Below are positions 2,977 through 34,600 of a stretch of 34,831 nucleotides of DNA, piece by piece; the first letter of the stretch is position 1, and each line of letters starts with the position of its first letter. This stretch comes from Defluviicoccus sp. (GTDB lineage: Bacteria; Pseudomonadota; Alphaproteobacteria; MPNO01): positions 1-34,831 of the forward strand of contig JAPPIT010000161.1 of NCBI GenBank assembly GCA_028820505.1, read 5' to 3'. The translations under genes were made by a program, and so were the position numbers. The notes under the pieces were generated by a model. It was given only the letters and a program-made list of their open reading frames with translations. It did no database searches and was not told where the DNA came from.

Positions 2977-4305
2977 TCAATTTCTCTTTCGCGGTTCCAC
3001 ACCGCCGTGCCAGTCGCGGAAATGGTGCCGGTGGGTCTCGAGATAGGCACCCGGTTTCATGTGCGCGTCGTAGAAGTCGAGGTCGAGGTGATGCGCCTGG
3101 ATCATCAGGGTCAGCTGGATCGGATCGACGGTCGCCGGGAACTTGCCGAAAGTGTCCAGGATGTAGCCGCAGATGTCCTTGACGCACTGCACGCCCTCGG
3201 GCGAGGCCTGCACCGTCGCCGCGTCGAATTCCGCGTTGGCCGCGACATGGGGCTTCAGCATTCCTCGCCCCTCCCAATCGTCCATGCTCATGGTCATGCC
3301 TTCGATCGCGGCGTCGACGGCGGCGTCCATGTCGGCGTGGTAGGGCGGGCAGAACGCCTCGAAAACGCCGTCCCGGCCGACCGGCACCGGGAACGGGTCC
3401 GAGCGCGACTGCACGAACCGGAAGCCGAGCCCGCGGCATGTCGGCGTTCCCCCGAGCACCACGAGGGAAGAGAAACCGCCATAGAGCCAGCCGCCGATGC
3501 CGGTGGCCTGCATGGCCAGCGTCATCAACTGGCCCATGAAGGCGCCCTCGGCCAGCATCCCGTCGGACAGCATCTTCTCCAGCCGCGACAGCGGCAGGAC
3601 TTTTCTTTTCGACAGGAACCCGCTTTCGACCCACGCCTCGTTGCCGCAGGGGCGCATGCCGTTGCGGTCGTCGACGATGTAATAGCCGCCGTCGCGGGCG
3701 TAGCGGCCGGCCTTGGAGTCGCAGAGATTGAGGACCAGCTTGATCATGTCCTTGGTGACGTCGATCACCGGCATGAACAGGGTGGTGCCGGGCTTGTTGG
3801 TGACCCACTGATTGTGCGGCCAGACGCCCGGCTCCACGCCTGGAAGATCCATGCGGCCGTCATCCAGCTTTTCGACGCAGGTCTCGTAGAACCCGACCAC
3901 CTTTCCGCGGTCGTCTCGCTCCTGGTACTCCCGCATCTTGGTCATCGCCGCCCGGTCGGCCTTGACGACGTAGACGCCGTGGTCGTCGGTGAAGAAAAGG
4001 CGCGCGCGGTGCGAGCCCATAGCGGACGGGTAGGGCTTGCCGATGGTCTTGACCATACCGCCGGGAAGCTCGGTCTCCGCCAGGATCGGACCCGTCGTCG
4101 CGGTGGCGGCAGCGACCAGCATGGCGGTTTCCAAATCGTCGAGACCCACCGGTTCCTTGTCCGAGCGGTGGCGGAACGGCCCCTTGGCCATTTCCATGCC
4201 GAGGCCGAAACGCCGGGACCGGCGGCCCATGATCGCGTCGAACAGGGGATAGTCCCACGCGGCTTCCGCCTGCGGCGGCAGGCCCGGGGGTTTCGGATCA
4301 CTCAT
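2977..4305 (-). CDS. Nitroreductase-like protein of unknown substrate
   Basis: The predicted protein has 442 residues. The start at 4305 has a GGGAG site upstream and overlaps the end of the preceding small gene by eight bases. The N-terminal part contains a GRRSRRFG segment resembling the FMN-phosphate-binding arginines of nitroreductases, followed by a helix LDDLETAMLVAAATATTG. A later helix, MGQLMTLAMQATGIGGW, resembles the family's second core helix. The C-terminal part is rich in His, Asp and Tyr and ends with HRHHFRDWHGG. It is about twice the length of a simple nitroreductase, so extra domain material is present. I regard nitroreductase fold as likely, but the reaction is unknown. It sits inside the TRAP operon between an 82-residue orphan and an aldehyde dehydrogenase. 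Confidence 0.85.
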   Translation of the reverse strand: MSDPKPPGLPPQAEAAWDYPLFDAIMGRRSRRFGLGMEMAKGPFRHRSDKEPVGLDDLETAMLVAAATATTGPILAETELPGGMVKTIGKPYPSAMGSHRARLFFTDDHGVYVVKADRAAMTKMREYQERDDRGKVVGFYETCVEKLDDGRMDLPGVEPGVWPHNQWVTNKPGTTLFMPVIDVTKDMIKLVLNLCDSKAGRYARDGGYYIVDDRNGMRPCGNEAWVESGFLSKRKVLPLSRLEKMLSDGMLAEGAFMGQLMTLAMQATGIGGWLYGGFSSLVVLGGTPTCRGLGFRFVQSRSDPFPVPVGRDGVFEAFCPPYHADMDAAVDAAIEGMTMSMDDWEGRGMLKPHVAANAEFDAATVQASPEGVQCVKDICGYILDTFGKFPATVDPIQLTLMIQAHHLDLDFYDAHMKPGAYLETHRHHFRDWHGGVEPRKRN

Positions 4306-13353: not shown

Positions 13354-14892
13354 TCAAGTCCGTGAGCGGCGCATCAGCGGCGGGTTGCGCGGCTCCGGGA
13401 ACCCTACGCGAATCTTGTCGACCAGTTCGTCGCGGACGCTGCGGTGGCCGGGGTCGTCCCAGAGGTTGACCCACTGCCGCGGGTCTTCGCGGACGTCATA
13501 CAATTCGCCCTCGCCGCCATGGTAGTAGTTGGTCGGCGCGTAGGCGGTGCACAGGAAGCCGGAGCGGTCGTAGACCGAGCGCAGCCGGATCTCGAGGCCC
13601 GCTTTTTCGGCATCCCACTGGCAGATCGCGTGATCGCGTTCCGGCGACGGATCGACCGGCAGCGCCGCGCCCTCCATCCACGGCGCCGCGTCGAGGCCGG
13701 CGATCGCGGCGAGCGTGGGCGCCAAGTCGACATGGCCCACCGGATCGTCGATGCGGGTTCCAGCGACATCGAGCCCCGCGGATGGGGCCGGCCGCCAGAT
13801 CAGCGGCAGGCGCATCAGGGCGTCGACATGGAACGGGCCCTTGAACATCAGCCCGAAATCGCCTTGGGCGGTCCCGTGATCGGTGGTGAAGAAGATGTCG
13901 GTTTCCGCCAGCCAGCCGCGCGACTCCAGCCAGCCGACGATCCGACCCAGAGCCTCGTCGATCAACTCGTTCTGGACGTGCACCATGGCGTCGATTTCAC
14001 GGACATTTTCCTCGGTCATCGTCGCGGGAACGAAGTCGTCCGGGGTTTCCTCGGCGATGTCCGCCTTGCCGAGATAGAACTCGAGCCAGTGCCTGGGTTT
14101 CTGCGACAGGAGCTCGACAATCTTGTCACGCGAACCCGGATGGCCCGGCGGCAGGTGGAGGTCGCGCCAGTTCACCCGGCCCAGCTCCGAGCGCGGCGGA
14201 TCGAAGGGGTGGTGAGGGTCGGGGAAGCTTACCCAGAGGAACCAGTCGTCGTCCCCGCCGAGGGTCGCCAGCCAGTCCATGGCCCGGTCGGCCACCCATT
14301 CGGTGTGGTAGAGCTCGCGCGGGCAATCGTTGCGATGGACCTGGATCGCGCGCGTCTCGCCGCCTCGCAGATTGTTGGGGCCGCTCTTCGGGCCGACCGG
14401 CGGGTAGAAATACTCGACCTGCTCTGCATGATTGTCCGCCATCCAGCGGCTGTAATGCGTCACGCAGCGATAGGAATGCGCGCTGTGGACGGCGAGCGAA
14501 AGATGCTCGAATCCGCGATATGGGCCGTGCTCTCCCCTTGTCGCGGCGGACGCCTCGAAGGCAGTCGGGTCCACCATCGGCTGCCAGTGGGCCTTGCCCA
14601 CCAGCGCGGTGCGATAGCCTGCCCGCTCCTTCAACAGGGCAGCGACGCTGGGATCGGATTCGGGCAGCGAAAAGCCGTTGCGGAAGACGCCGTGGGTATT
14701 GACGTGCTGCCCGGTGACGATGGTGGAGCGGGCCGGCATGCAGGTAACGTTCTGGGTGTACGCGCGCTCATACAGCACGCCTTCCGACGCCAGCCCGTCG
14801 ACGACCGGGGTCCTGGCGATCCGCCCGCCGTAACAGCCGAGACCGTCGCAGCGCTGCTCGTCGGTCGTCACGAAGAGGATGTTGCGTCCCAC
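13354..14892 (-). CDS. Type I sulfatase (alkaline-phosphatase superfamily)
   Basis: The 512-residue enzyme has the formylglycine signature C51-M-P-A-R (C-x-P-x-R) followed by STIVTGQ, N-terminal metal ligands in TTDEQRCDG (Asp11), and the second metal pair in FFTTDHGTAQGDFG. It should hydrolyse a sulfate ester once Cys51 is converted to formylglycine. No signal peptide is seen, so a cytoplasmic location is likely, acting on imported substrate. The start is a GTG at 14892 with GAGGG four bases before it. The gene follows the two ABC permeases by 28 bases, which ties it to that importer. A phosphonate hydrolase of the same fold is an alternative; the C-x-P-x-R motif occurs in both. Confidence 0.93.
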   Translation of the reverse strand: MGRNILFVTTDEQRCDGLGCYGGRIARTPVVDGLASEGVLYERAYTQNVTCMPARSTIVTGQHVNTHGVFRNGFSLPESDPSVAALLKERAGYRTALVGKAHWQPMVDPTAFEASAATRGEHGPYRGFEHLSLAVHSAHSYRCVTHYSRWMADNHAEQVEYFYPPVGPKSGPNNLRGGETRAIQVHRNDCPRELYHTEWVADRAMDWLATLGGDDDWFLWVSFPDPHHPFDPPRSELGRVNWRDLHLPPGHPGSRDKIVELLSQKPRHWLEFYLGKADIAEETPDDFVPATMTEENVREIDAMVHVQNELIDEALGRIVGWLESRGWLAETDIFFTTDHGTAQGDFGLMFKGPFHVDALMRLPLIWRPAPSAGLDVAGTRIDDPVGHVDLAPTLAAIAGLDAAPWMEGAALPVDPSPERDHAICQWDAEKAGLEIRLRSVYDRSGFLCTAYAPTNYYHGGEGELYDVREDPRQWVNLWDDPGHRSVRDELVDKIRVGFPEPRNPPLMRRSRT

Positions 14893-22169: not shown

Positions 22170-23309
22170 ATGTTCAACACCGACCGTATCCAGACGACCC
22201 ATGTGGGGAGCCTCCCGCGGCCCGCGGATGTCGCGGACGGGCTGTTCGCGCGGGAGCGCGGCGAGGATTTCGACCCGGCGGCCTTTCGCGCCTGTCTCGA
22301 CGACGCCGTGAATGCCATCGTCGCGCGGCAGCGCGAGGTCGGCATCGACCTGCCGTCCGATGGCGAGCTCGGCAAGATCTCCTACGCCACCTATATCAAG
22401 GACCGGCTGACCGGCTTCGACGGCGACAGTCCCCGCCAGCCGCCGGCCGACCTTGCTGACTATCCGGGCTATCTGAAGAAGCTCGCCGAGAGCGGCGGCA
22501 CGCCGACCTATCGGCGTCCGCGCTGCGTAGGGCCGATCGCGGTGAAGGATCTGGCGCCGCTCGACGAGGACATCGTTCGGTTCCGCCGCGCACTCGACGG
22601 CACCGGCTATTCCGGCGGGTTCATGAATTCCGCCTCGCCCGGCGTCATCGCCCAGTTCCAGCCCTCCGACTTCCACGCCGACCACGAGTCCTACGTGCGG
22701 GATCTCGGGGCGGCGATGCGCGCGGAGTACGCGGCGATCGCCGCCGCCGGACTCACCCTCCAGATCGACGCGCCGGATCTGGCGCTCGGCCGGCACGTCG
22801 TCTTCGCCGATCTCGACGACGAGACGTTCCTCGGGATCGCGGAAATGCATGTCGAGGTGATCAACGAGGCGCTCGCCGATGTGCCGCGCGAGCAGGTCCG
22901 GCTGCACATCTGCTGGGGCAACTACGAGGGTCCCCACACCCACGACATCGCGATGGAAAAGGTGTTGCCGCTGCTCCTCAAGGTGAAGGCGGGGGCACTC
23001 CTGTTCGAGACCGCCAATCCTCGCCACGGCCACGAATGGCGGGCCTGGCGGGATGTCGACCTGCCCGACGACCTGGTGCTCATCCCGGGGGTGATCGACA
23101 GTACGACCAACTATGTCGAGCACCCGCGGAACGTCGCCGACCGCATCCTGCGCTTCGCCGACATCGTCGGACGGGAGCGGGTGATCGCCGGGACCGATTG
23201 CGGCTTCGCGACCTTCGCGGGATATGGCGTGGTCGATCCGGAGATCGTCTTCGCCAAGCTCAAGGCTCTCGCGGACGGCGCGGCGATCGCGAGCGAAGAG
23301 TTGTTCTGA
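22170..23309 (+). CDS. MetE-like cobalamin-independent methyltransferase, C-terminal-domain type
   Basis: The 379-residue protein matches the stand-alone MetE C-terminal family: IQTTHVGSLPRP at the start, SDGELGK, the zinc-site block LHICWGNYEGPHTHD and TDCGFATF near the end with the second zinc cysteine. Such proteins transfer methyl groups to or from thiols in the cytoplasm. I chose ATG 22170, which has GGAGG upstream. An ATG at 22134 overlapping the regulator's stop is possible but adds a glycine-rich leader foreign to the family. It ends the plus arm. Its place in a sulfatase/ABC regulon suggests demethylation or C1 handling of the imported compound, which is inference. Confidence 0.92.
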   Translation: MFNTDRIQTTHVGSLPRPADVADGLFARERGEDFDPAAFRACLDDAVNAIVARQREVGIDLPSDGELGKISYATYIKDRLTGFDGDSPRQPPADLADYPGYLKKLAESGGTPTYRRPRCVGPIAVKDLAPLDEDIVRFRRALDGTGYSGGFMNSASPGVIAQFQPSDFHADHESYVRDLGAAMRAEYAAIAAAGLTLQIDAPDLALGRHVVFADLDDETFLGIAEMHVEVINEALADVPREQVRLHICWGNYEGPHTHDIAMEKVLPLLLKVKAGALLFETANPRHGHEWRAWRDVDLPDDLVLIPGVIDSTTNYVEHPRNVADRILRFADIVGRERVIAGTDCGFATFAGYGVVDPEIVFAKLKALADGAAIASEELF

Positions 23310-23440: not shown

Positions 23441-23656
23441 TCACGTCCCGGCGACCGCACCATTCTTGTCATGAACGATCGACCCGGAAGTGTCGGTCTC
23501 GGCGATTGCGGGGGCCCCCAACTCTTCGACCCCGGCCATCGCAGACCGGGTGCCGGCATCGTCGACCGGAATGTCGAGACGGGTCGAGAATTCCAGAGTC
23601 ACCGCGATCGCGGGACAAACCGCTGCCTCGCAGCTTTGGCGCGAAAGATGTCGCGC
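23441..23656 (-). other. Short open minus-strand frame in a 387-base gap, possible gene remnant
   Basis: The gap 23310-23696 has no clear gene. On the minus strand one frame stays open from about 23656 to a TGA at 23441-23443 and reads LEFSTRLDIPVDDAG, then AMAGVEELGAPAIAETD and SIVHDKNGAVAGT. The composition is protein-like, but no ribosome site precedes the only GTG (23602) and no family was recognised. It may be a degraded 3' end or chance. The right end of the gap holds the promoter of the next operon. Confidence 0.25.
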
Positions 23657-23663
23657 CTATAAT
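23636..23663 (+). promoter_or_regulatory. Promoter of the plus-strand HAAO-like operon
   Basis: A perfect TATAAT -10 box (23658-23663) lies 16 bases after TTGGCG (23636-23641), which matches the -35 consensus at four positions. Transcription would start near 23670, leaving a leader of about 27 bases before the GTG start and its GGGAGAG ribosome site. This is the best -10 box seen in the window. Confidence 0.65.
23638..23657. promoter_or_regulatory. Inverted repeat GGCGCGA-N6-TCGCGCC inside the promoter
   Basis: Two perfect seven-base arms (23638-23644 and 23651-23657) with a six-base spacer fill the region between the -35 and -10 boxes of the plus-arm promoter. A dimeric regulator bound here would block RNA polymerase. 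No dedicated repressor gene is adjacent. The only regulator in the cluster is LysR-type at 33647-34600, whose usual sites have a different form, so the binding protein is unknown. Confidence 0.55.
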
Positions 23664-23696: not shown

Positions 23697-24401
23697 GTGA
23701 ACGACACGCCAACAGAGATGCTTTCCATGCCGCCGCCCGCTGCGGACAAGCAGCCGCTGAAATGCAACGTCTACGAATATGCGCGCACGCTGGTCAGCAC
23801 GCTGACCCCCATGTTCCCGTACGTGGACGAGGGCGCGATGGTGCCTACCATCGCGTTGTTCTACGGCCAGCCGGGCGGCGATTACGGCTATTTCGAGCAC
23901 GAGAACACGGTCGACGAGGTGGCGATCGTCTTCGGCTCCGGCGCGACCACTGGGCGCGGCAAGGCCGGGCTGGTGCGGGCCAGCGCCCGCAGCCACGGGG
24001 TCGGCAATCTGCTGAGCGAGCCTGACAGCCCCGAAAGTTTCTCTCTGGTCTCGGTCACCCAGCGCCAGTCGACGGGCGTGCCGCAGAAGGAAGCGGTTGC
24101 CTTCACCTGTGCGGCCTGCTCGACCGAAATCTACCGGGAGGAGTTCGATTCCACCCCGCCCAAGCGCGGCAAGCAGCAGGACGAAGTCGGTCCGGTGGGC
24201 CACTTGCACACGATCTATGGCAGCGCCCGAACCGCGCTCAACTACAACGCCGACGAGAGGAACCGGACCTGCCCCAAATGCGGCAACGTCAACGCGCCGT
24301 TCCCGCTCGGACGATGGGGCTGGGACCGCTACCGAGACATGACCGACATCATCCGCGAGGCGCATCAGAGCCTGAGCGAGACCGCGGCCGCAGCCGGCTA
24401 G
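23697..24401 (+). CDS. HAAO-like cupin with C-terminal CxxC...CxxC metal site (paralogue 1)
   Basis: The 234-residue protein starts at a GTG with a GGGAGAG site; a longer frame upstream runs through the promoter and is rejected. A cupin strand YGYFEHENTVDEVAIVFGSG keeps His68 and Glu74 of an H-x-N-x3-E iron motif. The C-terminal part has Cys138/Cys141 (FTCAACSTEIYREEF) and Cys192/Cys195 (NRTCPKCGNVNAP), the rubredoxin-like site of bacterial 3-hydroxyanthranilate 3,4-dioxygenases. The whole is longer and more divergent than that enzyme, and a clear third iron ligand is missing; His100 is a candidate. It may be a ring-cleaving dioxygenase or a partner subunit of the protein encoded next. It is the first gene of the plus arm. 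Confidence 0.85.
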   Translation: MNDTPTEMLSMPPPAADKQPLKCNVYEYARTLVSTLTPMFPYVDEGAMVPTIALFYGQPGGDYGYFEHENTVDEVAIVFGSGATTGRGKAGLVRASARSHGVGNLLSEPDSPESFSLVSVTQRQSTGVPQKEAVAFTCAACSTEIYREEFDSTPPKRGKQQDEVGPVGHLHTIYGSARTALNYNADERNRTCPKCGNVNAPFPLGRWGWDRYRDMTDIIREAHQSLSETAAAAG

Positions 24402-24416
24402 CCGGAGGACCCTCGA

Positions 24417-24980
24417 ATGGCACGGAGGCCCCGCTTCGCCGCCTTCGACGAGGCCGTCAGTCGCGGCCCCTACGACGAATACCCGATGCTTCCTGCGGGC
24501 GTGGACCCCCAAATCTGTCTCAGCCGCAACGACCGGCCTCAGCCCTTTTTCCTGATCTGCGAGCACGACACGGTTCTGGTCAACATGTCGGGCGAGGGCC
24601 GGGTGGAATTTCCCGAAGGACCCGTCAGATATCACCTGGTGGTCCCTGGCGACTTCGTCTACGTGCCCTCCGGTACGCCGCATCGGATCGTTCCGGAGGG
24701 CGAGTGCGTCCAGCTTCGCTACAAGGCCGAGCATCCGGGCCTCGAGGCAGTCGCCTGGTATTGCCAGGGTTGCGGTGCAGAGATCGCCCGCGAGGTCTGG
24801 GACACGGCGGTTGAGATCCCGCAGGAGGGCTATCTCCGCGCCTGCCGCGAATTCAACGCCGATGCCGAGCGTCGGAGCTGCGCCTCCTGCGGCGGGACCC
24901 ACGAGGAGGTCGACCTCTCCCCTTATGGCTGGGAGGCGGTGGCGGCCGAAATCCGCGAGGACATGGCCAAGAGCGCATGA
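24417..24980 (+). CDS. HAAO-like cupin with C-terminal CxxC...CxxC metal site (paralogue 2)
   Basis: The 187-residue protein has the size of bacterial 3-hydroxyanthranilate 3,4-dioxygenase. It has the cupin strands VLVNMSGEGRVEF and GDFVYVPSGTPHRI (His89 at the position of the last iron ligand), and the C-terminal pairs Cys116/Cys119 (WYCQGCGAEI) and Cys155/Cys158 (RRSCASCGGTH). The first iron-binding His and Glu are not present in the usual place, where ICEHDTVLV is seen. Either the metal site is altered or this is a non-catalytic partner. GGAGG precedes the ATG, and the stop overlaps the next start (ATGA). Confidence 0.9.
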   Translation: MARRPRFAAFDEAVSRGPYDEYPMLPAGVDPQICLSRNDRPQPFFLICEHDTVLVNMSGEGRVEFPEGPVRYHLVVPGDFVYVPSGTPHRIVPEGECVQLRYKAEHPGLEAVAWYCQGCGAEIAREVWDTAVEIPQEGYLRACREFNADAERRSCASCGGTHEEVDLSPYGWEAVAAEIREDMAKSA

Positions 24981-26119
24981 ACGCCCCCGCGGAGACGGGC
25001 GAGCTCGTTTCGATAGACCTGCGGCCGAGCAACACGCCGCCCGTCGGTCAGGGGATCGCCGATCGAGTGCGCCCCCGCATCGTCGGGAAGATCGCCGATG
25101 TAGGGTGCGCCAAGGACATTGCGTTCCTCGTCATGCACCCGGCGGTGAGCTTCCTGCACCACTACGTCCAAGCGCCGCTGGCCGAACGCGGGCGCGCCGT
25201 GCTCACGCTTACCAGCCGCCACCTATACAACGACAGCGCGCTCTTGATGGAACGCCTGATCCAGGATGTCGGAGGGGGCGTGCGCTGGCTGCGCGAGCGC
25301 GGTTACGGGCGGGTCGTCCTGGTGGGCAACTCGGGGGGCGGACCGGTCATGTCGCTTTATCAGGCGCAGGCCGAGACTCTCACCATCGACTCCACTCCTG
25401 ACGGACGACCCTTCGATATCGTACCCGAAGACCTCCCGCCCGCCGACGCGGTGGTCCTCCTGAGCGCCCATCCCGGGCGCCATCAGCAGTTCCGCTCCGC
25501 GCTCGATCCTTCCGTGATCGACGAGGCGGACCCGCTTTCAGCCGATCCCGCGCTCGACATGTACAACCCCGACAACGGGCCGCCCTACGACCGTGACTGG
25601 CTTGCGCGCTACGAGACGGCGCAGGCCGCGCGCTACAATGCGATCACCAAGTTCGTGCTGGCGCGGCTGCGACAACTGGACAGCGATCCCCGCGCCGACG
25701 ACCAGGGCTTCGTCATCCACCGCACCTACGCAAAGCCCGCCACGCTCGACCGCTCGATCGATCCCAACGACCGGCCTGCGGGCGACGCCACGATCTTCGG
25801 CAAGGCGCGGGCGGTGAACTACTCCGCCGGCGTGTTCGGCCGCTTCACCACGCTCAGGTCCTATCTCAGCCAGTGGAGCCCGCTCAGCATCGCCGACGGC
25901 CCAGCGCGTCTGGCGGAAACCTCGGTACCGGTGCTGAACGTCGAATACTCGGCCGACGAGGGCTGTTTCCCGTCGGAGACCGGCCGGTACACGGAGGCGG
26001 TGGGCTCGCGCTGCGAGACCTATCTGCTGAAGGGCGCTATGCACTTCCCCTTCACCCAGCCCGACGGCGACCGGCTTATCGGCGAACTCGCCGACGTGCT
26101 GGCCGACTGGAGCGCCTGA
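24977..26119 (+). CDS. Alpha/beta hydrolase, paralogue A
   Basis: The 380-residue protein has a nucleophile elbow GNSGGG (Ser119) after the strand GRVVLVGNSG, and LKGAMHFPF near the end as the likely catalytic histidine region. A long insert between them (LDMYNPDNGPPYDRDWLARY, then FVIHRTYAKPATLDRSIDPND) would form a lid. It is closely similar over its full length to the protein at 26773-27921. Substrate is unknown; it could cleave a ring-opened product, an ester or a C-C bond. Its ATG overlaps the previous stop. It ends the plus arm, seven bases from the converging DUF1989 gene. Confidence 0.9.
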   Translation: MNAPAETGELVSIDLRPSNTPPVGQGIADRVRPRIVGKIADVGCAKDIAFLVMHPAVSFLHHYVQAPLAERGRAVLTLTSRHLYNDSALLMERLIQDVGGGVRWLRERGYGRVVLVGNSGGGPVMSLYQAQAETLTIDSTPDGRPFDIVPEDLPPADAVVLLSAHPGRHQQFRSALDPSVIDEADPLSADPALDMYNPDNGPPYDRDWLARYETAQAARYNAITKFVLARLRQLDSDPRADDQGFVIHRTYAKPATLDRSIDPNDRPAGDATIFGKARAVNYSAGVFGRFTTLRSYLSQWSPLSIADGPARLAETSVPVLNVEYSADEGCFPSETGRYTEAVGSRCETYLLKGAMHFPFTQPDGDRLIGELADVLADWSA

Positions 26120-26126
26120 ACCGCTC

Positions 26127-26753
26127 CTATTCGTAAACCTGAACGCGGAGCGCCCGTCCCATTGAGGGGCAGGCGCTGAGGGCGCACAGCGTGTCCATGC
26201 GGGCAACGAAGTCGATGTAGTCGCCGGGCTGGCTGCGCCCTTCCACGAGCGTGAACGTCCCATTTTCGACATCGTAGTCGACGGTCTGGAAGAGGTTGAT
26301 CGGGTCTGGAATTTCGTGCGGCTCGATCAGCCAGTCTCCAAGTGCCCGCTGCAGCACCTCGTAACAGCCGAAGGTCGGCATTCCGAGCGGTCCGCCGAGC
26401 GTCAACTCGTCCTCCGCGAAGCCGCGATAGTCGTCGCTCCTGAAGTTCTCGTACACCCAGGCCGAGCACATCCCGTATTGCAGGTCGTGGATGCCGTACG
26501 TGTCCTCGACGATGGTCAGCATTGGGCTGTTTTCGCGGGAGTAGAGATGGTCGCCCTCGGAGAGCAGGAACTTGCCATGATTCGTCCGGGTGCGGGCTTG
26601 GCTGAACCGTTCGGTGAGATCGTTGGCGTTGAAACAGACGAAATCGCCAATGGCGCCGCCCTCAACGTCGATGACCCGGACATGCTGCCCCTTCCTTACG
26701 ACCCAAGCGCCGCCTTCTCGGCCCGGAAGGGTGAGGTCTTCGAGGATGTTCAT
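26127..26753 (-). CDS. DUF1989 (urea carboxylase-associated) family protein
   Basis: The 208-residue protein matches the DUF1989 family found beside urea carboxylase and allophanate hydrolase. Recognisable blocks are RKGQHVRVIDVEGGAIGDF, ERFSQARTRTNHGKFLLSEG and the GIHDLQYGMCS motif, and RSQPGDYIDFVARMDTLCA near the end. The biochemical role of the family is poorly defined; links are to urea, guanidine and related nitrogen metabolism. It is the last gene of the minus arm, 19 bases after the hydrolase. Its presence is the main hint that the substrate of this cluster contains nitrogen. No urea carboxylase lies in the window. Confidence 0.93.
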   Translation of the reverse strand: MNILEDLTLPGREGGAWVVRKGQHVRVIDVEGGAIGDFVCFNANDLTERFSQARTRTNHGKFLLSEGDHLYSRENSPMLTIVEDTYGIHDLQYGMCSAWVYENFRSDDYRGFAEDELTLGGPLGMPTFGCYEVLQRALGDWLIEPHEIPDPINLFQTVDYDVENGTFTLVEGRSQPGDYIDFVARMDTLCALSACPSMGRALRVQVYE

Positions 26754-26772
26754 CGTTCGCCTCCGGCCCGGA

Positions 26773-27921
26773 TCAGCGCCGGTCGCCCCACTCGGCGATC
26801 GTGTCGGCGAGCTCGGAAATCAGCGCCGGTCCGTTTTCCTGCTTGTAGGGGAAGTGCCGCGCGCCGACGAGCGTGTAGTCATCGCAGCGTCCTTCCGCAG
26901 CATCGGAATATTCCTGCGACAGGCTGGGGTAGGTGCCTTCGTCGGCCGAGAACCGGATGTTGATCACCGGCACCGAGGTTTCGGCGAGGCGCGCCGGTCC
27001 GTCGGCGGCGCGGCCGAGCAGGCTCCACTGGCTGAGATAGGACCGGAGCGTCGTGAATCGTCCGAGGACCGTGGCCGCGTAGTTGGTCGCCCTGGCCCCG
27101 CCCCAAATCGAGGTGGCGACGGGCCGGTCGTTGGGGTCGATGGTCGGATCGAGAATCTGCGGCCGCGCGTAGGTGCGGTGAATCAGGAACGGCTCGTCGA
27201 CGAGTCCCGCTTCGTCCGGCATCTTGTCGATCTCGCGCAGCCGGCCAAGCGCCCAGTCGGTGATCCGCCTGTGCCTGGCCGATTGCGCCGCGGCATACCG
27301 CTTGAGCCAATCGCGGTCATAGGGTGGGCCGTTGGCCGGGTTGAACATGTCGAGGTCGGGATCGGTTCGGGTCAGCTCGCGCTCGTCGAGCATCGAGGGG
27401 TCGAGGGACATGCCGAAATGCCGCCCCCTGCCGATGTGGCAGGAAGCCAGCACGATCGCGTCGACCGGCGGCAGGTCCTCGGGGTAGAGGTCGATGGCGA
27501 GCCCGTCGGGCGTCGTGTCGATCGTCATCCTTTCCGCCTGCGCCTGGTAGAGCGTACCGACGGAGCCGCCGCCCGAATTTCCGATATAGACGATCCGCTC
27601 GTAGCCCCTCTCGCGCAGGAACTTCACACCCGCGCCGATATCCTGGATGACGCGCTCGACCACCAGCGTCGAATCGTTGTTCACGTAACGCGTATTGAGG
27701 CCGAGGATCGCCCGCCCCCGCGCCTGCATCGGCTCGATAAGGTAGTGGTGCATGAAATTGACGGCGGGATGGAGCACGAGGTAGGCGACGTCCTTGCCGC
27801 AGCCTTCCTCCGCCAGCCGGCCGTAGATCCGCGGTCTCACCAGGTCCTGGACCCCCTGGCGAGGGCTCCTGTCTCCCAGCTCCGCAGGCCGGACGTCGAT
27901 GGAGACGATCCGTTCGCTCAT
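26773..27921 (-). CDS. Alpha/beta hydrolase, paralogue B
   Basis: The 382-residue protein shares extended blocks with paralogue A: VRPRI.G, HPAV.F.HHY, QD.G.GV, GNSGGG (Ser116), PEDLPP.DA, NGPPYDRDWL and IDPNDRP. ATG 27921 follows a GAGGAG site, and longer starts intrude on the permease. The likely catalytic histidine lies in LVGARHFPY. Differences cluster in the region following the nucleophile (IGRGRHFGMS against PGRHQQFRSA), so the two may act on different intermediates. It lies 11 bases after the ABC permease. Confidence 0.9.
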   Translation of the reverse strand: MSERIVSIDVRPAELGDRSPRQGVQDLVRPRIYGRLAEEGCGKDVAYLVLHPAVNFMHHYLIEPMQARGRAILGLNTRYVNNDSTLVVERVIQDIGAGVKFLRERGYERIVYIGNSGGGSVGTLYQAQAERMTIDTTPDGLAIDLYPEDLPPVDAIVLASCHIGRGRHFGMSLDPSMLDERELTRTDPDLDMFNPANGPPYDRDWLKRYAAAQSARHRRITDWALGRLREIDKMPDEAGLVDEPFLIHRTYARPQILDPTIDPNDRPVATSIWGGARATNYAATVLGRFTTLRSYLSQWSLLGRAADGPARLAETSVPVINIRFSADEGTYPSLSQEYSDAAEGRCDDYTLVGARHFPYKQENGPALISELADTIAEWGDRR

Positions 27922-27932
27922 GACAGCTCTCC

Positions 27933-28736
27933 TCAGGCCCAGCGCATAGTCCAACGTTCGAAATAATCCATGCCTCGGACGATCAGCAGCGCGTAGCAGG
28001 AGGTGTAGAGCACCCAGGCCCACATCTCCGCGATCTGATAGCTCTGCGCGGTGACCGCGATCTGCTGTCCGAGCCCGGCCGAGGCGGCGAGGAATTCGGC
28101 GACGACGATCATGATGATCCCGAGCGTCACCCCGATGCGGAACCCCGCGATCAGGTAGGGCAGCGCTGCCGGCAGCACCACCGCAGTGAACAGCCGGTTG
28201 TGCGAGTAGCCGAACACCCGTCCCACGTCGATGAGAAGCCTGGGCGTCTGCTTGGCGCCGATATAGGCGTTGAACAGAACGGGAAAGACCACGCCGAGGA
28301 AGACGATGATGGTGCGGGAGAGATCGCCGATCCCGAAAATCAAGATGATGACAGGGAACAGCGCGATCCGGGGCATCGCGGAAAAGAAGACCACGTAGGG
28401 ATCGACCACGTCGCCGAAGCGCCGCCACCAGCCCATGGCGAGCCCCACGGTCGCCCCGAAGGCGATCGCCGCCACCACCCCAGCCACGTAGGCGTAGCCC
28501 GTCCGCAGCGTATGGAACAGGAGATTCCCGTCGATCAGCATCTCCCAGGCCTTGACCGAGATCGCGCTGGGCGTGCTGAAAAAGAACGTGTCGAGCACCC
28601 CGGTCCTCCCGCCCGCTTCCCAGCCGGCGAGGATGGCCACGAGAATGAGCAGCGAGAGAGTCCCGGGACTCCTTGCGAAGGCACGCAGCCGGGCGGGTTC
28701 GCTGGTTTCTAGGCGGTCGCCTGGAGGAGTTCCCAA
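27933..28736 (-). CDS. ABC transporter permease, NitT/TauT (SsuC) type
   Basis: About 267 residues with six hydrophobic segments and the family EAA-type loop (DVGRVFGYSHNRLFTAVVLPAALPYLIAGFRIG). The ending (YQIAEMWAWVLYTSCYALL) is standard for SsuC/TauC relatives. No ATG or GTG fits the expected start. A TTG at 28736 preceded by AGAGGG is the best candidate and overlaps the ATPase gene by 28 bases; a shorter non-ATG start is possible. It forms the membrane channel of an importer with the ATPase and binding protein encoded upstream. Confidence 0.88.
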   Translation of the reverse strand: MGTPPGDRLETSEPARLRAFARSPGTLSLLILVAILAGWEAGGRTGVLDTFFFSTPSAISVKAWEMLIDGNLLFHTLRTGYAYVAGVVAAIAFGATVGLAMGWWRRFGDVVDPYVVFFSAMPRIALFPVIILIFGIGDLSRTIIVFLGVVFPVLFNAYIGAKQTPRLLIDVGRVFGYSHNRLFTAVVLPAALPYLIAGFRIGVTLGIIMIVVAEFLAASAGLGQQIAVTAQSYQIAEMWAWVLYTSCYALLIVRGMDYFERWTMRWA

Positions 28737-29473
28737 AGCATCGCCCTCTGTTCCTGGAACCCGGTCGACACCCTGACCGAGTGCTCGCGCGGCTTGGGAA
28801 TTGCCACCTCGACCTCCTCGATCACGCGTGCCGGGCGCGACGAGAACACGATGACCCGGTCCCCGAGGAACAGCGCCTCCTCGATGTCGTGGGTCACCAG
28901 AAGCACGGTCACCTTCTGCTGGGTCACGATGTGGAGGAGGTCGGTCTGCATGGTCTGGCGGGTCATGGCGTCGACCGACGCGAACGGCTCGTCGCACAGC
29001 AGGAGCCGCGGTTCGACCGCGAGCGCCCGGGCGATCCCCACCCTCTGCTGCATGCCGCCGGAAAGGGCCTTCGGATGGAAGTCCTCGAACCCCTGCAGCC
29101 CGACGCGCCCGATGACGTCGTTGGCGCGGTCGCGCTGCTCGTCCTTCGGGAGACCGCTCGTCGCCAGGCCGAACAGGACGTTCTCCAGCACGCTGAGCCA
29201 TGGCATCAGCCCGAACTGCTGAAAGATCAACGAACGTTCCGGCGTCGGACCGTCGATTTCCCGTCCGTCGAGCTTGAGCGCCCCGCTGTCCGGCTCTTCC
29301 AGCCCGGCAACGAGCCTGAGGAAGGTGGTCTTGCCAGACCCGCTGGCGCCGACGATGGAGACCACCTCGCCCCGCGCCTGGGACATATCGATCCCGTCGA
29401 GCACCGGAAGCCGGCCCTGCGCCGTCGGGAAGGACTTGGTGACCCCGATCACCTCGAGGCTCGGTTCCTCCAT
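28709..29473 (-). CDS. ABC transporter ATP-binding protein, NitT/TauT (SsuB) type
   Basis: The 254-residue ATPase has Walker A GASGSGKTT, Q-loop IFQQFGLMPW, signature LSGGMQQRVGIARAL, Walker B LLLCDEPFASVDA and the VTHDIEEAL switch region. The length and the QQFGLMPW sequence are typical of SsuB/TauB proteins, which serve nitrate, taurine, sulfonate and similar small-anion importers. The ATG lies 20 bases after the binding-protein stop. It overlaps the permease gene. Confidence 0.95.
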   Translation of the reverse strand: MEEPSLEVIGVTKSFPTAQGRLPVLDGIDMSQARGEVVSIVGASGSGKTTFLRLVAGLEEPDSGALKLDGREIDGPTPERSLIFQQFGLMPWLSVLENVLFGLATSGLPKDEQRDRANDVIGRVGLQGFEDFHPKALSGGMQQRVGIARALAVEPRLLLCDEPFASVDAMTRQTMQTDLLHIVTQQKVTVLLVTHDIEEALFLGDRVIVFSSRPARVIEEVEVAIPKPREHSVRVSTGFQEQRAMLWELLQATA

Positions 29474-29493: not shown

Positions 29494-30519
29494 TCAGAAG
29501 GAGATCTTCAGTTCCTTCAGCACCTCGGCGATCGGCTCCAGCGCGCTCGCCTGGCGCACGTCGATCGAGCCCTTGGGCCGCCGCAGCGCGATTTCCGACA
29601 TCGCGGCATCGAACGAGTAGTCGCCCTTCGACGGGTCGAGGCGAAGCATCCATGAATTGCGGTGCATCTCCCAGACCTCCTTCGCCGTCGCCTCGGATTG
29701 GGCGTAAGGCTTCGCGGTCAGCACCGAGACGGCGAAATCGCGGTCCTCGCGCAGGCGGACGGTCGCCCTGGCCAGCGCGCGCAGGAAGGCGCGCACGGTG
29801 TCGGGATGCTGTTTCAGCATCTTGAGCGAGGTCCCCCAGCCGAGGTTCTGGGCCTCGTTGATCGGCAGCCCCTGTTCCTTGCGCCAGTCGTTGTAGTCGA
29901 GGATCTGGACGAGGCCGGATTTCCGCGCCTTGCCGATCCAGTTGCTGGAAATGTTGGCGATGTCGGCGTTCCCGCTCATCAGCGAGCCGAAGCCGTTGAA
30001 GGACTCGAATCGCTCGACATCCGTGATCTTGAGGCCGGCGGTCGCCAGCATCTGTTTCCAGACATTGTCGAGCGTTTCGCCTGCCCGCACGGTCTGGATC
30101 GTCTTGCCGCGCACGTCCTTGAGCGACTTGATGCCACTCGCCTTCTTGACCCAGAAGGCGTAGGGATAGCGGCTTGAGACCAGCGCGATCGCGCGCACCG
30201 GCGCCTTGCCGCCGAGCGAGGCGCGGATGAAGCTGCCGCCGCCCAGCGCGAACTGCGCCGCGTCCGCCGCGAGCGACTGTACCGGCTCGGTCCAGGAGCG
30301 GAACCCGACGATCTCCACCGCGAGACCCTCGCGCTTGAACTCGCCGGCCCTGACTGCGCCCTCCAGCGCCGCGCGCTGGACCAGCACGGTGAACGGCATC
30401 GCGACCTTGACCTTGGCAAGCGACAGTTTGGCTTGGGCGGCTTGCGCTCCGGCGGCAACCGCGACGGAGCCTGCCGCGACGAGAACGGCCGCCAAATGCT
30501 TGGTCTTCAGCAGTCTCAT
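29494..30519 (-). CDS. ABC transporter substrate-binding protein, NitT/TauT (SsuA) type
   Basis: The 341-residue protein has a signal peptide (MRLLKTKHLAAVLVAAGSVA, cleavage near AQA-A at residue 28) and the two-lobed fold of SsuA/ThiY relatives: FKREGLAVEIVGFRS, DAAQFALGGGSFI, SLKDVRGKTIQTV and the lobe-two NADIANISSNWIGK. The ATG at 30519 has GGGAGAAAG upstream. The family binds small sulfonates, aromatics, pyrimidine precursors or cyanate-like anions. It follows the third HAAO-like gene, placing import in the same transcript as the oxygenases. Confidence 0.94.
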   Translation of the reverse strand: MRLLKTKHLAAVLVAAGSVAVAAGAQAAQAKLSLAKVKVAMPFTVLVQRAALEGAVRAGEFKREGLAVEIVGFRSWTEPVQSLAADAAQFALGGGSFIRASLGGKAPVRAIALVSSRYPYAFWVKKASGIKSLKDVRGKTIQTVRAGETLDNVWKQMLATAGLKITDVERFESFNGFGSLMSGNADIANISSNWIGKARKSGLVQILDYNDWRKEQGLPINEAQNLGWGTSLKMLKQHPDTVRAFLRALARATVRLREDRDFAVSVLTAKPYAQSEATAKEVWEMHRNSWMLRLDPSKGDYSFDAAMSEIALRRPKGSIDVRQASALEPIAEVLKELKISF

Positions 30520-30560: not shown

Positions 30561-31214
30561 CTACCACAGCTCGCGGGCGGCGCGCTCTTCCGACGTATCG
30601 TTCCACGGAAAGATCGAATAGGCGACCGGATGGACCGCGCCGCAGGACGAGCAGGTCCGCACCTTCTCGTCGCCGTTGAATACCGCGAATCCGTCTTCCT
30701 GGACGGCGTAGTAGCCGCCGAGCCCGACCTTTGCGGTCTCGACCTCCACCATGTAGAGCGGATCAAGACATTCGAGGCAGAACCAGGCGAAGCGGTCGAT
30801 TCGCCCGCGCTCGGGATACCCCTCGATCAGAACCGTCAGCCGGCGGTCGTCGCCTAGCTTGAGGTTCATGACCATTTCCTGCTGGTCGTTGATGTGCCAG
30901 AAGCCGTAGACGTGCTCGGCGTGGTGAGGCACCAGCGGCGGTGTGAATTGAACGTCTTGGCGCGGTTCGGAGACGATCTTGCCGTTCATGATCTTGAGGG
31001 ACCGGCCCGGCTTGAACCCCTTTCCGTCGGGCCGGGGCTCGGCATAGCGAAGCCCGATCAGCATGTCGCCGCAGGGGTAGAAGCTCCGGTATCGGAGCTT
31101 CGATTCCTCGCTCATCAGGTCCATAGTCAGCAGCGCCGCCTCTTTGCCGACGAGGTCCTTCATCAAGCTGAAGGATTCCGGCGCAAGGGTCGATGAAGAG
31201 GTGCCGTCTGTCAT
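30561..31214 (-). CDS. HAAO-like cupin with C-terminal CxxC...CxxC metal site (paralogue 3)
   Basis: The 217-residue protein carries a cupin strand VYGFWHINDQQEMVMNLKLG with His107 and Glu113 in the H-x-N-x3-E arrangement shared with paralogue 1. The C-terminal pairs are Cys146/Cys149 (WFCLECLDPLYMVEVE) and Cys188/Cys191 (RTCSSCGAVHP). The spacing and RTC..CG.VHP ending closely match the metal site of bacterial 3-hydroxyanthranilate dioxygenase. About 90 N-terminal residues precede the barrel core, more than in that enzyme. GGAGGG precedes the ATG, which overlaps the ferredoxin stop (ATGA). This coupling suggests the two proteins act together or in adjacent steps. Confidence 0.9.
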   Translation of the reverse strand: MTDGTSSSTLAPESFSLMKDLVGKEAALLTMDLMSEESKLRYRSFYPCGDMLIGLRYAEPRPDGKGFKPGRSLKIMNGKIVSEPRQDVQFTPPLVPHHAEHVYGFWHINDQQEMVMNLKLGDDRRLTVLIEGYPERGRIDRFAWFCLECLDPLYMVEVETAKVGLGGYYAVQEDGFAVFNGDEKVRTCSSCGAVHPVAYSIFPWNDTSEERAARELW

Positions 31215-31567
31215 GCTTCCCTCCTGCTCCTTTCCGAGACCGCCGTTTCGTAGGCCGCGAGCACCGCATCGCGGTCATAGCCTTCTTCGGCGCAGGATAT
31301 TACCGCGACCGGCTCGACGACGCGCGCCTGGCAGGCGAGGCGGAAGGACGGGTGATAGCCCCACCCCTCGATGAAATAGCGTTCGATCTCGTTCGGTTCG
31401 TCCAGCATGCCCTCGACGACCAGCATGCAGCACGTCCCGCACAGCGCCTCGCCGCCGCAATACCAGCGCCAGGGAAGCCCGGCCTCGCGCGCTCCCGTCA
31501 AGAGCGCCCGGCCCTGTTTGACCTCGAAAGTCCTGTTGGCGCGGTTGACGACAGTGACGCTCGGCAT
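31211..31567 (-). CDS. [2Fe-2S] ferredoxin
   Basis: The 118-residue protein has plant-type cluster ligands Cys37-x5-Cys43-x2-Cys46, with Cys79 in RLACQA; Cys47 is an extra cysteine. The segment after the last ligand (VEPVAVISCAEEGYDRDAVL) is longer than in minimal ferredoxins. It transfers single electrons in the cytoplasm. It lies 30 bases after the flavin monooxygenase gene and overlaps the third HAAO-like gene. No ferredoxin reductase is present in the cluster, so a reductase elsewhere must be used. Confidence 0.94.
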   Translation of the reverse strand: MPSVTVVNRANRTFEVKQGRALLTGAREAGLPWRWYCGGEALCGTCCMLVVEGMLDEPNEIERYFIEGWGYHPSFRLACQARVVEPVAVISCAEEGYDRDAVLAAYETAVSERSRREA

Positions 31568-31597: not shown

Positions 31598-32749
31598 CTA
31601 TTCGGCGGCGACGGTTTCGGTCGTCCTGCCGAGATGCTTGACCTCCGGGAACACGTGCTCGCCGAGAAGTTTCATGCTCCGAAGGACGAAATCGTCCGAC
31701 ATATTGCCGACTTTCACGATCAGATTCATGTGCCCGTGGTTCAGCGCGGCGTGCATGCGCTCGATCTGGTCGACCACCATGTCGGGCGTGCCGCAGAGAA
31801 CCTGCCCGTTCTCGATTCGCTGCTCGACCGGGGTTGCCTTCATCGTCTGGTCCTTGTCGACCGGGCGGACGAGGGTGTCGTCGGCGTTGAAGCGAGTCTT
31901 CTGAAGGACGAGGAGCTGGGCTCGGTTTATGCCGCCCTGGAGGACGTCGAAGAAATACTGCGTGCCGTCGTGCAGCTCGCGCTTCGCTTCCTCGAAGGTC
32001 TCGGCGACCGCCGTCGGCACGCCGACCATGAACCGGTCCGGGCCGGGCTCCCAGCCGTCCTCGCGGGCCTTCTGCTTGTAGATGTCGATCAACTGCAGCG
32101 CCTGGTCGAAATTGAGCACGCGGAGGATGCCCATGATCGCCCGGTGCTCGGCGGCGAAGCGGGCCGATGTCGGGCTGCCGCCCGACATCAGGATCGGCGG
32201 GTGCGGTTCCTGGACGGGTTTGGGCCAGATCGAGACCGCGCGGAACCGGTAATGCTCGCCCTCCCAGCCGAACGGCTCCGGCTCGGTCCACGCCTTGAGG
32301 ATCAGCTGCACGGCCTCGCGCATGCGGCTCCAGGACTCGTCGGGCGCGACGTTGTAGGCGACGTATTCGTGCGGGATGCCGCGCATGAAGCCCGCCATCA
32401 GCCGGCCGCCGCTCATCACGTCGATCATCGCGTATTCTTCCGCGACCCGGATCGGGTTGGTCAGCGGCACGATATTGCCGCTGAGTTGAATTTCGGCCGT
32501 GGTCGTGCGCTCGGTCACCGAGGCCGCGATCAGGTTGGGGTTCGGCATCATGCCGAACGGGCTCATATGGTGCTCGTTGCAGCCGATCGCGTCGAAGCCG
32601 CACTCTTCGGCGTGCACCTTGGCGTGGATATAGGTGCGGAACATTTCGATCGCACGCGCGGACTCGAACCGGCTGTTCGAGATCGGCCATCCCAGTCCGG
32701 GCTCGTCGATATCGGTGTAGGGCATGTGGTGGGTCTGCGAGAATCTCAT
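31598..32749 (-). CDS. Luciferase-like (LLM class) flavin-dependent monooxygenase
   Basis: The 383-residue protein is a bacterial-luciferase-fold enzyme: FDAIGCNEHH (58-61), LSGNIVPLTNPIRVAEEYAMIDVMSGGRLMAGFMRG and the HPPILMSGGSPTSARFAAEH segment are standard. Such enzymes use reduced FMN and oxygen to hydroxylate or cleave carbon-heteroatom bonds. The ATG overlaps the preceding hydrolase stop (ATGA). It lies directly before the ferredoxin gene, and no flavin reductase is encoded nearby. Its position early in the minus arm suggests an initial oxygenation of the imported compound. Confidence 0.95.
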   Translation of the reverse strand: MRFSQTHHMPYTDIDEPGLGWPISNSRFESARAIEMFRTYIHAKVHAEECGFDAIGCNEHHMSPFGMMPNPNLIAASVTERTTTAEIQLSGNIVPLTNPIRVAEEYAMIDVMSGGRLMAGFMRGIPHEYVAYNVAPDESWSRMREAVQLILKAWTEPEPFGWEGEHYRFRAVSIWPKPVQEPHPPILMSGGSPTSARFAAEHRAIMGILRVLNFDQALQLIDIYKQKAREDGWEPGPDRFMVGVPTAVAETFEEAKRELHDGTQYFFDVLQGGINRAQLLVLQKTRFNADDTLVRPVDKDQTMKATPVEQRIENGQVLCGTPDMVVDQIERMHAALNHGHMNLIVKVGNMSDDFVLRSMKLLGEHVFPEVKHLGRTTETVAAE

Positions 32750-33558
32750 GGACGGTTCCCCGCCACTGTTTCGGGCAGCGCCTGATTGACGATGAAAGCC
32801 TCGCCCCTGACCAGGAAATCCTCGATCAGCGCACCGACCCGGTCCGGCTGATCCAGCTCCAGGCTGTGGGCGGCATCGTAGACATAGACCAGCTGCGAAC
32901 TGGGAATTCGTTCCTTCAGCATCTGCACGCCCGATGCCGGCACCCGCACGTCGAGCGTGCCGTGCAGGATCAGCGTCTGGCAGCCAATCTCCGCTACCTT
33001 CGCCTGTAGGGCGGCGTCGTGGGAATTGCCCAGCCCGTATCGGACGACGGCCTCGGCATTCGCTTTTCGCATCTCCGGCGGCTTGTCGTCGGGCGGTACC
33101 CGCTCGGGATGGGCGTAAAGCTGGGCGCGCATGACGTCGGGTTCGAAACTGAGCGGCGGCGCATCCGCCGGCCGGAAACCGGCGGGCGCGGCGAGCACAA
33201 GATGTTCCACAAGATCCGGATGGCGAATGGCGAACCATGCGCCGAGCCAGCCGCCCAGCGAGCTGCCCACGACATCGACCGCCCGGCCCGGGCCGCTCTC
33301 GATGAACGCCGCCAGCAGGTCGGCGAGCGCCAGCATCGTATCGACGGTTCCGTGGGCGATGGTGCCGTCAAAACCCGGCACGACCGGCGCCCAGACGCGA
33401 AATCGTCGGACCAGGCGACGGAGCGAATCGGAAATCCGCATCCCCGCGGCGGGGTGGAGATAGACGACATCGTGGCCCGTTCCGGCCACGAAATACGTCA
33501 CCGACCCGGTGGGCAGGTCCATGGTTTCGCGCTCGAATTCGCCGGTCATCCGGTTCAC
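32746..33558 (-). CDS. Alpha/beta hydrolase, 270 aa (not closely related to the two paralogues)
   Basis: A compact alpha/beta hydrolase with oxyanion motif YLHPAAG, nucleophile elbow G-S-S-L-G (Ser100), acid in LHGTLDVRVPA and the histidine in DAAHSLELDQP. The triad is complete. Family members of this size include meta-cleavage-product hydrolases and esterases. The start is a GTG at 33558, with ATG 33549 an equally plausible alternative; neither has a strong ribosome site. It is the first gene of the minus arm and overlaps the monooxygenase start. Its fold differs from the 380-residue paralogues. Confidence 0.92.
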   Translation of the reverse strand: MNRMTGEFERETMDLPTGSVTYFVAGTGHDVVYLHPAAGMRISDSLRRLVRRFRVWAPVVPGFDGTIAHGTVDTMLALADLLAAFIESGPGRAVDVVGSSLGGWLGAWFAIRHPDLVEHLVLAAPAGFRPADAPPLSFEPDVMRAQLYAHPERVPPDDKPPEMRKANAEAVVRYGLGNSHDAALQAKVAEIGCQTLILHGTLDVRVPASGVQMLKERIPSSQLVYVYDAAHSLELDQPDRVGALIEDFLVRGEAFIVNQALPETVAGNRP

Positions 33559-33638: not shown

Positions 33639-33651
33639 ATTGAGTGTCAAT
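33639..33651. promoter_or_regulatory. ATTGA-GTG-TCAAT inverted repeat at the end of the LysR gene
   Basis: Two perfect five-base arms with a three-base spacer span the LysR stop codon, about 25 bases upstream of the minus-arm -35 box. That is a normal place for an activator site. It lacks the T-N11-A spacing of classical LysR sites. It also contains a second TTGACA on the minus strand at 33645-33650. Function is not established. Confidence 0.35.
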
Positions 33652-34600
33652 CAATAATCGAATCCGCCAACCGGTCGATCGACCATTCCGCGGGAGTGGC
33701 CAGCGTCTCGCCGAGATAGTCGACGAAGGCGGTCAGGCGCGGCGACCGGTGCGGGTTCCGCGGATAGCACAGGAAAACCGGTACGCCGCGGAGCACATGG
33801 TCCGGCAGGACGATCTTCAATCGGCCGGCCGCCACATCGTCGGCGATCAGGAAATCCATCAGATAGGCAAGCCCGGCCCCAGATAGGGCCGCCTGGTGGA
33901 CCGCCTGTATATCGTTGGCGTTGAGTACGGAGGCGATCGGCACCGAGACTTCTTTTCCGCGGCTCCGCAGCGTCCAGTCACGTCGGCGCCCGGAACGCGG
34001 ACGCAGGTAGTTGAGGCATCTGTGCCGGACCAGATCGCCGAGTTCCACGGGCTCGCCATACGACTCGAGGTAGCTGGGGGCGGCGCAAACGGCATACCCG
34101 ATAGTGCAAATCCTGCGGGCGACGAAGCGGCCGGTCTCGGGCTCGCCGAGTATGAAGGAGGCATCGACCCCCTCCTCGCTCGGATCGATGGCGCCGTCGT
34201 TGACGGTGATATCGACGGTCACTTCGGGGTAGCGCGATAGAAACCCGGCGAGCGCCGGCACGACGACCGTCCGGCCGAAGCCGCGCGGCACCTGGATCCG
34301 GAGAGGTCCCCGGGGGACGCCGCGCGCCTCGGCAAGAGCGTCCTCGGCGGCTTCGAGTTCGGCGAGGATATGCCGGCAGCGCTCGAAATAGGCGCTGCCC
34401 TCCGCCGTCAACGACAGTCGCCGCGTCGTCCGGTCGACCAACCGGGTTCCGAGCTTGGCTTCCAGCCGCGCGATCGCCCGGCTGACGCCGGATGCCGACA
34501 GCCCGAGTTGGCGCGCCGCCTCCGTGAAGCTGGCGCTTTGCGCCACACGAACGAAGATGGCAATACCGTCGAAGCTGTCCCGCCGTTCCGGTCCCGCCAT
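33647..34600 (-). CDS. LysR-family transcriptional regulator
   Basis: The 317-residue protein has the LysR winged helix-turn-helix at residues 9-67 (FVRVAQSASFTEAARQLGLS, SGVSRAIARLEAKLGTRL, RRLSLTAEG) and the effector domain (GPLRIQVPRGFGRTVVVPAL onward). It belongs to the CrgA/YafC-like group by the FARVAE.GSF-type start and the conserved CLNYLRP.. segment. It lies upstream of and in the same direction as the minus arm, unlike the usual divergent arrangement. It may control that arm; a link to the plus arm 10 kb away is only possible. Confidence 0.94.
   Translation of the reverse strand: MAGPERRDSFDGIAIFVRVAQSASFTEAARQLGLSASGVSRAIARLEAKLGTRLVDRTTRRLSLTAEGSAYFERCRHILAELEAAEDALAEARGVPRGPLRIQVPRGFGRTVVVPALAGFLSRYPEVTVDITVNDGAIDPSEEGVDASFILGEPETGRFVARRICTIGYAVCAAPSYLESYGEPVELGDLVRHRCLNYLRPRSGRRRDWTLRSRGKEVSVPIASVLNANDIQAVHQAALSGAGLAYLMDFLIADDVAAGRLKIVLPDHVLRGVPVFLCYPRNPHRSPRLTAFVDYLGETLATPAEWSIDRLADSIID

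Follow-up and report, generated by a model that had tools for sequence, protein, structure and literature searches.

Origin and possible role of two facing alpha/beta hydrolase genes in a putative catabolic cluster of Defluviicoccus sp.

Where do two similar alpha/beta hydrolase genes, placed on opposite strands of one gene cluster of Defluviicoccus sp., come from, and what could both be doing there? The genes, named here AB1 (24977-26119, plus strand, 380 aa) and AB2 (26773-27921, minus strand, 382 aa), lie on a stretch of 34,831 nucleotides (contig JAPPIT010000161.1 of assembly GCA_028820505.1, our G000:C60:1-34831), hereafter the window, which is part of a 5.49 Mb genome in 228 contigs. Each of the two has an intact open reading frame. 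As a whole, the explanation that we favour, with a probability of roughly 55%, is that AB1 and AB2 are duplicated serine hydrolases working in a peripheral catabolic pathway.

AB1 and AB2 are 59% identical across query residues 9-379 with an E-value of 9e-146, which excludes a chance likeness and bears out an earlier note, made from the DNA letters, that had described the two proteins as alike along their whole length. At the DNA level, an 892-base stretch of the two genes is 67% identical. The four blocks that the note had listed as shared (GNSGGG, PEDLPP, NGPPYDRDWL and IDPNDRP) are all present in both copies, but they are not special to the pair, since forms of them run through an alignment of 35 homologues and are thus family motifs. 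The note had also seen the two proteins diverge after the nucleophile. Identity by AB1 residue is 36% (1-33), 58% (34-111), 67% (112-135), 68% (136-157), 51% (158-200), 62% (201-300) and 56% (301-380), with no special drop beyond the nucleophile.

The note had named a phylogeny with homologues as its check, and we built three trees, two careful ones with 33 and 31 chosen rows and a quick one with all 95 rows collected. In the 33-row tree, three AB1 and three AB2 sequences, from the window and from the genomes G001 and G003, form one clade (100/100), and each copy is likewise supported at 100/100. The AB1+AB2 clade was again recovered at 100/100 in the 31-row tree, to which close homologues from other Pseudomonadota and from plasmids had been added, and with an SH-aLRT of 100 in the 95-row tree. 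The order (G003,(window,G001)) is identical within each copy in the 33-row and 31-row trees. The distance between AB1 and AB2 is about 0.9 changes per site, and the stem of the clade measures 0.42 (31-row tree). The next rows outside the clade are singletons from two Rhodospirillales bins, a Rhodospirillaceae bin and Antarcticimicrobium luteum, with 47-54% identity to the window copies (33-row tree). The genome of the window also carries a third copy (C204, 47-48% identity), which groups with C160 of G004, a genome of the genus, and with genomes from a different family within the order, and is placed as a lineage separate from AB1 and AB2.

The pair, with a DUF1989 gene in between, is also found in G001 and G003, where the orthologues are 93-96% identical; the AB1 and AB2 proteins of these two genomes equal those of the public Defluviicoccus sp. 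bins L031 and L032. Going by their names, the Defluviicoccus bins may come from sponges. Three of the five genus genomes searched contain the pair, and all three that have one copy have both. As for the other two, G002 is 89% complete, and in G004 the orthologue of the luciferase-like flavin monooxygenase (LLM) of the cluster ends, among the matches listed, 68 bases from a contig end, with cup1, the first gene of the plus arm, not found in this genome; a true absence of the pair from G004 and G002 is for these reasons uncertain, and in G004 an assembly gap may account for the missing pair. The 59% shared by AB1 and AB2 was not approached by any match beyond the three genomes, and no homologue beyond the six sequences falls inside the AB1+AB2 clade in any of the three trees. 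A single-copy member of the clade was found neither among 67 genome-contig loci (scanned with six exact peptide seeds from AB1, by which distant or AB2-only loci could be missed), nor in the 22 of 97 relatives or the 40 of 385 class genomes with a match, nor in the 6 of 398 phylum genomes matching at E 1e-60 and 50 plasmid records (all below 60% identity). Concerning the coverage of the trees, eight of 97 loci have no row because fewer than 300 residues aligned (L019, L029 and L092-L097), five protein rows were dropped as exact duplicates, and the homologue of the Sphingobium TKS plasmid (L159) and the class-genome homologues L106-L131 stand in no tree.

Since the pair clade is restricted to three genomes and no outside homologue falls into it, the duplication is assigned to this cluster and is placed before the split of the three Defluviicoccus-type species. 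We consider it highly probable, judging from these trees, that AB1 and AB2 are paralogues from one duplication in a Defluviicoccus-type lineage, and this event may have taken place in the ancestor during or after assembly of the cluster. The local duplication that the note had suspected is therefore supported by fully supported sister positions in three trees and by a pair kept in three genomes; neither copy was found alone elsewhere or placed with a distant group. Independent acquisition of AB1 and AB2 finds no support in the three trees.

What reaction the pair could catalyse was approached through structure. The AlphaFold model of AB1 (pLDDT 93.2, pTM 0.93) predicts an alpha/beta hydrolase fold, and in a structure search with this model the 50 entries listed had Z-scores of 18.7-22.9, all 1000 aligned chains having a Z of at least 8. 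The top match is an alpha/beta hydrolase of Candidatus Kryptobacter (7qjn), with Z 22.9 and an rmsd of 3.1 over 241 aligned positions; a feruloyl esterase (7wwh) comes second, with Z 22.7 and an rmsd of 3.0 over 234 positions, and numerous other esterases follow closely. A PDB search with the single protein gave no close match at E 1, and a 35-row profile gave partial matches, the best being 8e-8 across 76 profile positions. A Ser119-Asp327-His356 triad is proposed from motif and position: Ser119 (in GNSGG) and Asp327 are invariant and His356 is kept in at least 90% of 35 homologues, and AB1 and AB2 have all three. Neither protein matches a curated model of meta-cleavage-product hydrolases of the MhpC/BphD type (NCBIfam, E 0.001).

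The gene layout around the pair comes from a gene caller that uses codon usage and was trained on the window, with the L031 locus for comparison. The plus arm consists of cup1 (23697-24401, alternative start 23727) and cup2 (24417-24980), both encoding cupin-like proteins, followed by AB1, whose start overlaps the cup2 stop by 4 bases (ATGA). On the minus strand, read from the AB1 side, the DUF1989 gene (26127-26753) separates the two copies, its stop being only 7 bases from that of AB1; it lies downstream of AB2, which is followed by the genes for an ATP-binding cassette (ABC) importer, namely a permease (27933-28640, approximate start), an ATPase of the taurine/nitrate/sulfonate type (28709-29473) and an NMT1/SsuA-type substrate-binding protein (29494-30519). 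Then come cup3 (30561-31214), also cupin-like, a 2Fe-2S ferredoxin (Fer2, 31211-31567), the LLM (31598-32749), the adjoining AB3 (32746-33558), an alpha/beta hydrolase of another subfamily (PF00561), and upstream of AB3 a LysR-type regulator (33647-34600), all on the minus strand. AB1 is thus the last gene of its arm and AB2 the last but one of the other, in line with the note's remark that each arm ends with or near a copy. Directly upstream of cup1, a promoter-like site (TTGGCG, 16, TATAAT) is seen at 23636-23663, one of two in the region against 1.2 expected by chance, and a MetE-like protein (Meth_synt_2, 22170-23309) that scores below the equivalog cut-offs is encoded upstream of the plus arm.

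On the NCBIfam model of 3-hydroxyanthranilate dioxygenase, cup2, cup3 and cup1 score 31.8, 35.6 and 17.3 bits against a cut-off of 220, the weak similarity of cup2 and cup3 to 3-hydroxyanthranilate 3,4-dioxygenase lying for cup3 in the four-Cys region; the fold of cup1 is putative. Their C-terminal four Cys are invariant in all 11 aligned cupin-like sequences and form a putative metal site, such Cys binding metal in the 3-hydroxyanthranilate dioxygenase family. By eye, all three proteins keep CxxC...CxxC, whereas the upstream metal ligands of the family vary among the three and are maybe incomplete in cup2 and cup3. The DUF1989 protein, of the urea-amidolyase-associated or TMAO-demethylase-domain type, reaches 155.9 bits on PF09347 against a cut-off of 27; no urea carboxylase gene was recognised in the window.

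The neighbourhoods of related hydrolases offer another view. Among the 15 nearest relatives, that is all non-pair rows of a 21-row clade in the 31-row tree, 12 have a VOC gene at most 210 bp from that of the hydrolase, one has it at a distance of 3.1 kb, and in two the DNA examined contains none; the VOC queries came from five of the loci then counted, and the window has no match to them. PF00903 is matched by the VOC proteins tested, those of L033, L133 and L167, which also give weak hits to catechol 2,3-dioxygenase models (E 2e-9 to 2e-5). The hydrolase neighbours are a VOC protein and an FAD-dependent oxidoreductase on the Variovorax sp. SRS16 plasmid, and a VOC protein on the plasmids of Cupriavidus necator N-1 and Bosea vaviloviae. 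A more distant relative is encoded on a plasmid of Rhodococcus oxybenzonivorans, immediately after a gene with the annotation homogentisate 1,2-dioxygenase. For the benzophenone-3 strain S2-17, PMC10754744 credits the pathway to Baek et al. 2022; the plasmid gene may or may not take part in it. By analogy, neighbourhoods of this kind, together with the modules within the genus that follow, suggest that ring compounds are catabolised. Within the genus, contig C21 of the window genome (L184) carries a second module of LLM and AB3-like genes followed by CN_hydrolase, Amidohydro_2, HbpS-like, LigB and RidA-type genes, and G004:C122 (L185) and G003:C92 (L186) share a cluster of LLM, hydrolase, VOC, two cupin-like, M24 and Rieske-type proteins, whose domains were tested on the G004 copy. 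The LLM family is large in the genus, with at least 33-42 matches per genome. Literature searches on an LLM/3-hydroxyanthranilate dioxygenase gene cluster and on hydrolase, VOC and ring cleavage turned up nothing on the pathway.

Taken together, we propose that the cluster probably breaks down a ring-shaped compound. The ABC importer would take up this compound, the LLM, perhaps with the ferredoxin, would oxygenate it, and one or more of the cupin-like proteins would open the ring. AB1 and AB2 would then each hydrolyse a different intermediate or, alternatively, one would split off a side chain held by an ester or amide bond and its partner would cleave the opened ring, while the DUF1989 protein would act on a nitrogen-containing piece. 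The usual partner of the family, a one-domain VOC protein of the glyoxalase/dioxygenase superfamily, would have been replaced in this cluster. That AB1 and AB2 are hydrolases of a catabolic route is likely; that they act specifically on ring-cleavage products is a tentative suggestion. A new route that combines LLM oxygenation, ring opening by remote 3-hydroxyanthranilate-dioxygenase-like proteins, two duplicated hydrolases with a switched partner and nitrogen removal by DUF1989 seems doubtful to us; if it were real, the similar paralogous cluster with LLM, hydrolase and cupin-like genes in sister genomes would make a small radiation of parallel pathways.

Several observations weigh against this proposal. 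Searches of Pfam and NCBIfam at E 0.001 assign AB1 and AB2 to no model, no member of their family with a tested function was found, and the structural matches of AB1 span many esterase types and single out no reaction. None of cup1, cup2 and cup3 comes near the curated equivalog score for 3-hydroxyanthranilate 3,4-dioxygenase, the structure model of cup1 is poor (pLDDT 44), and the VOC proteins match catechol-dioxygenase models about as weakly as they match other VOC models such as FosK, FosF and YaeR. Because the cupin-like proteins score so far below the cut-off and the cup1 model failed, ring opening by them is a step that we infer.

This putative status of the ring-opening dioxygenase gives room to another role, in which AB1 and AB2 would work ahead of the oxidation, as esterases or amidases that each unmask another conjugate of the compound taken up, and would play no part after ring opening. 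The feruloyl, chlorogenic-acid and cinnamoyl esterases among the best structural matches would suit such a role. We regard it as possible but rather unlikely, as the VOC partner in most close relatives and the homogentisate-dioxygenase-like gene before a distant one fit better with a step linked to ring opening.

If AB1 and AB2 arose by duplication, the way in which the second copy reached the opposite strand has to be considered, and the note had proposed an inverted duplication or the joining of two related operons. Apart from AB1 and AB2, the two arms carry non-homologous genes: cupin-like proteins stand on one side, DUF1989 and the ABC importer on the other, and the lone distant link is cup3 of the right arm, whose likeness is mainly limited to the four-Cys region. 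The upstream flanks of AB1 and AB2 share no significant DNA (best 18 bases, E 0.09). With arm neighbours that are not homologous and flanks without significant shared DNA, the best account is that one gene was duplicated and placed in inverted orientation. On the same grounds, neither an inverted duplication of a block nor the joining of two sister operons is supported, the flanks sharing only short chance matches and cup3 being no close sister of cup1 or cup2. As for joined operons, two related ones from different donors could each have brought their own copy, the sister position of AB1 and AB2 then reflecting unsampled donors; the partner genes do differ between the arms, and the distance between the copies relative to the clade stem speaks of a long separate evolution that leaves room for one or more such donors. 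This history nevertheless appears improbable, given that no sampled homologue enters the clade and that the copies always occur together (3/3 genomes).

AB1 and AB2, taken as products of a single-gene duplication, are each under purifying selection, with Nei-Gojobori dN/dS values of 0.078-0.091 for AB1 and 0.059-0.088 for AB2. Neither is a pseudogene, as the frames are intact and dN/dS is low. At family-conserved sites (gap columns included), AB1 alone has 11 lineage-fixed changes and AB2 alone 13, with 11 more sites changed in both copies; these changes are compatible with different substrates for the two copies, which is a possible outcome. The AB1 changes include N58S, N79T and Y82H, which adjoin the HP and NTRY motifs and may lie near the active site. 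Constant retention of both copies in the three pair genomes under similar constraint could also be read as AB1 and AB2 being subunits of one hetero-oligomeric hydrolase, but this is very improbable, because both have the full proposed triad, no relative is known here as heteromeric, and opposite strands would be unusual for subunits needed in equal amounts.

Elsewhere on the window contig, a sulfatase with a CMPAR motif (13354-14892), presumably the CxPxR motif of Cys-type sulfatases, and a protein with a sulfatase-modifying-factor (FGE) domain (147-851) are encoded, with TRAP and tripartite tricarboxylate transporter genes between them. A 442-aa protein is encoded at 2977-4305, with TRAP transporter genes on its upstream side and a minus-strand aldehyde dehydrogenase gene on its downstream side; its coding signal is good, and neither Pfam nor NCBIfam gives a match at E 0.001.

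A duplication that leaves two copies in one uncharacterised catabolic cluster is nothing very unusual, and the genomic observation by itself is ordinary as well. The pair is a clean duplication inside such a cluster, and the usual state of its relatives, one copy with a VOC neighbour, is well defined. Should the function be solved, a widespread hydrolase family that matches no Pfam or NCBIfam model could be named and the diet of little-known bacteria revealed.

Finally, we compared the cluster with known systems. Like 3-hydroxyanthranilate 3,4-dioxygenase (NbaC), the cupin-like neighbours have the C-terminal CxxC...CxxC and give weak profile and PDB matches, but they stay far below the curated cut-offs and the rest of the chain aligns poorly. 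The DUF1989 protein resembles urea-amidolyase-associated and TMAO demethylase domain proteins in matching PF09347 and the PDB entries 3di4 and 9q59, but it falls below the cut-offs of both urea-amidolyase-associated models. Feruloyl and cinnamoyl esterases and monoglyceride lipases (7wwh, 3pf9, 7ozm) share the predicted fold of AB1 with Z-scores of 19.6-22.7 at 13-17% identity, although their chains are shorter (251-278 residues in those listed). Closest to AB1 is an uncharacterised family of alpha/beta hydrolases of 370-430 aa, found in Pseudomonadota, Actinomycetota and others and often encoded next to a VOC gene. One of its members, WP_162572108.1 of the Variovorax sp. SRS16 plasmid, is 46.5% identical across 98% of AB1 and shares Ser-Asp-His and the family motifs. 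The closest relatives of AB1 and AB2 occur as one copy per neighbourhood, mostly by a VOC gene and some by an FAD monooxygenase, whereas the window has two.

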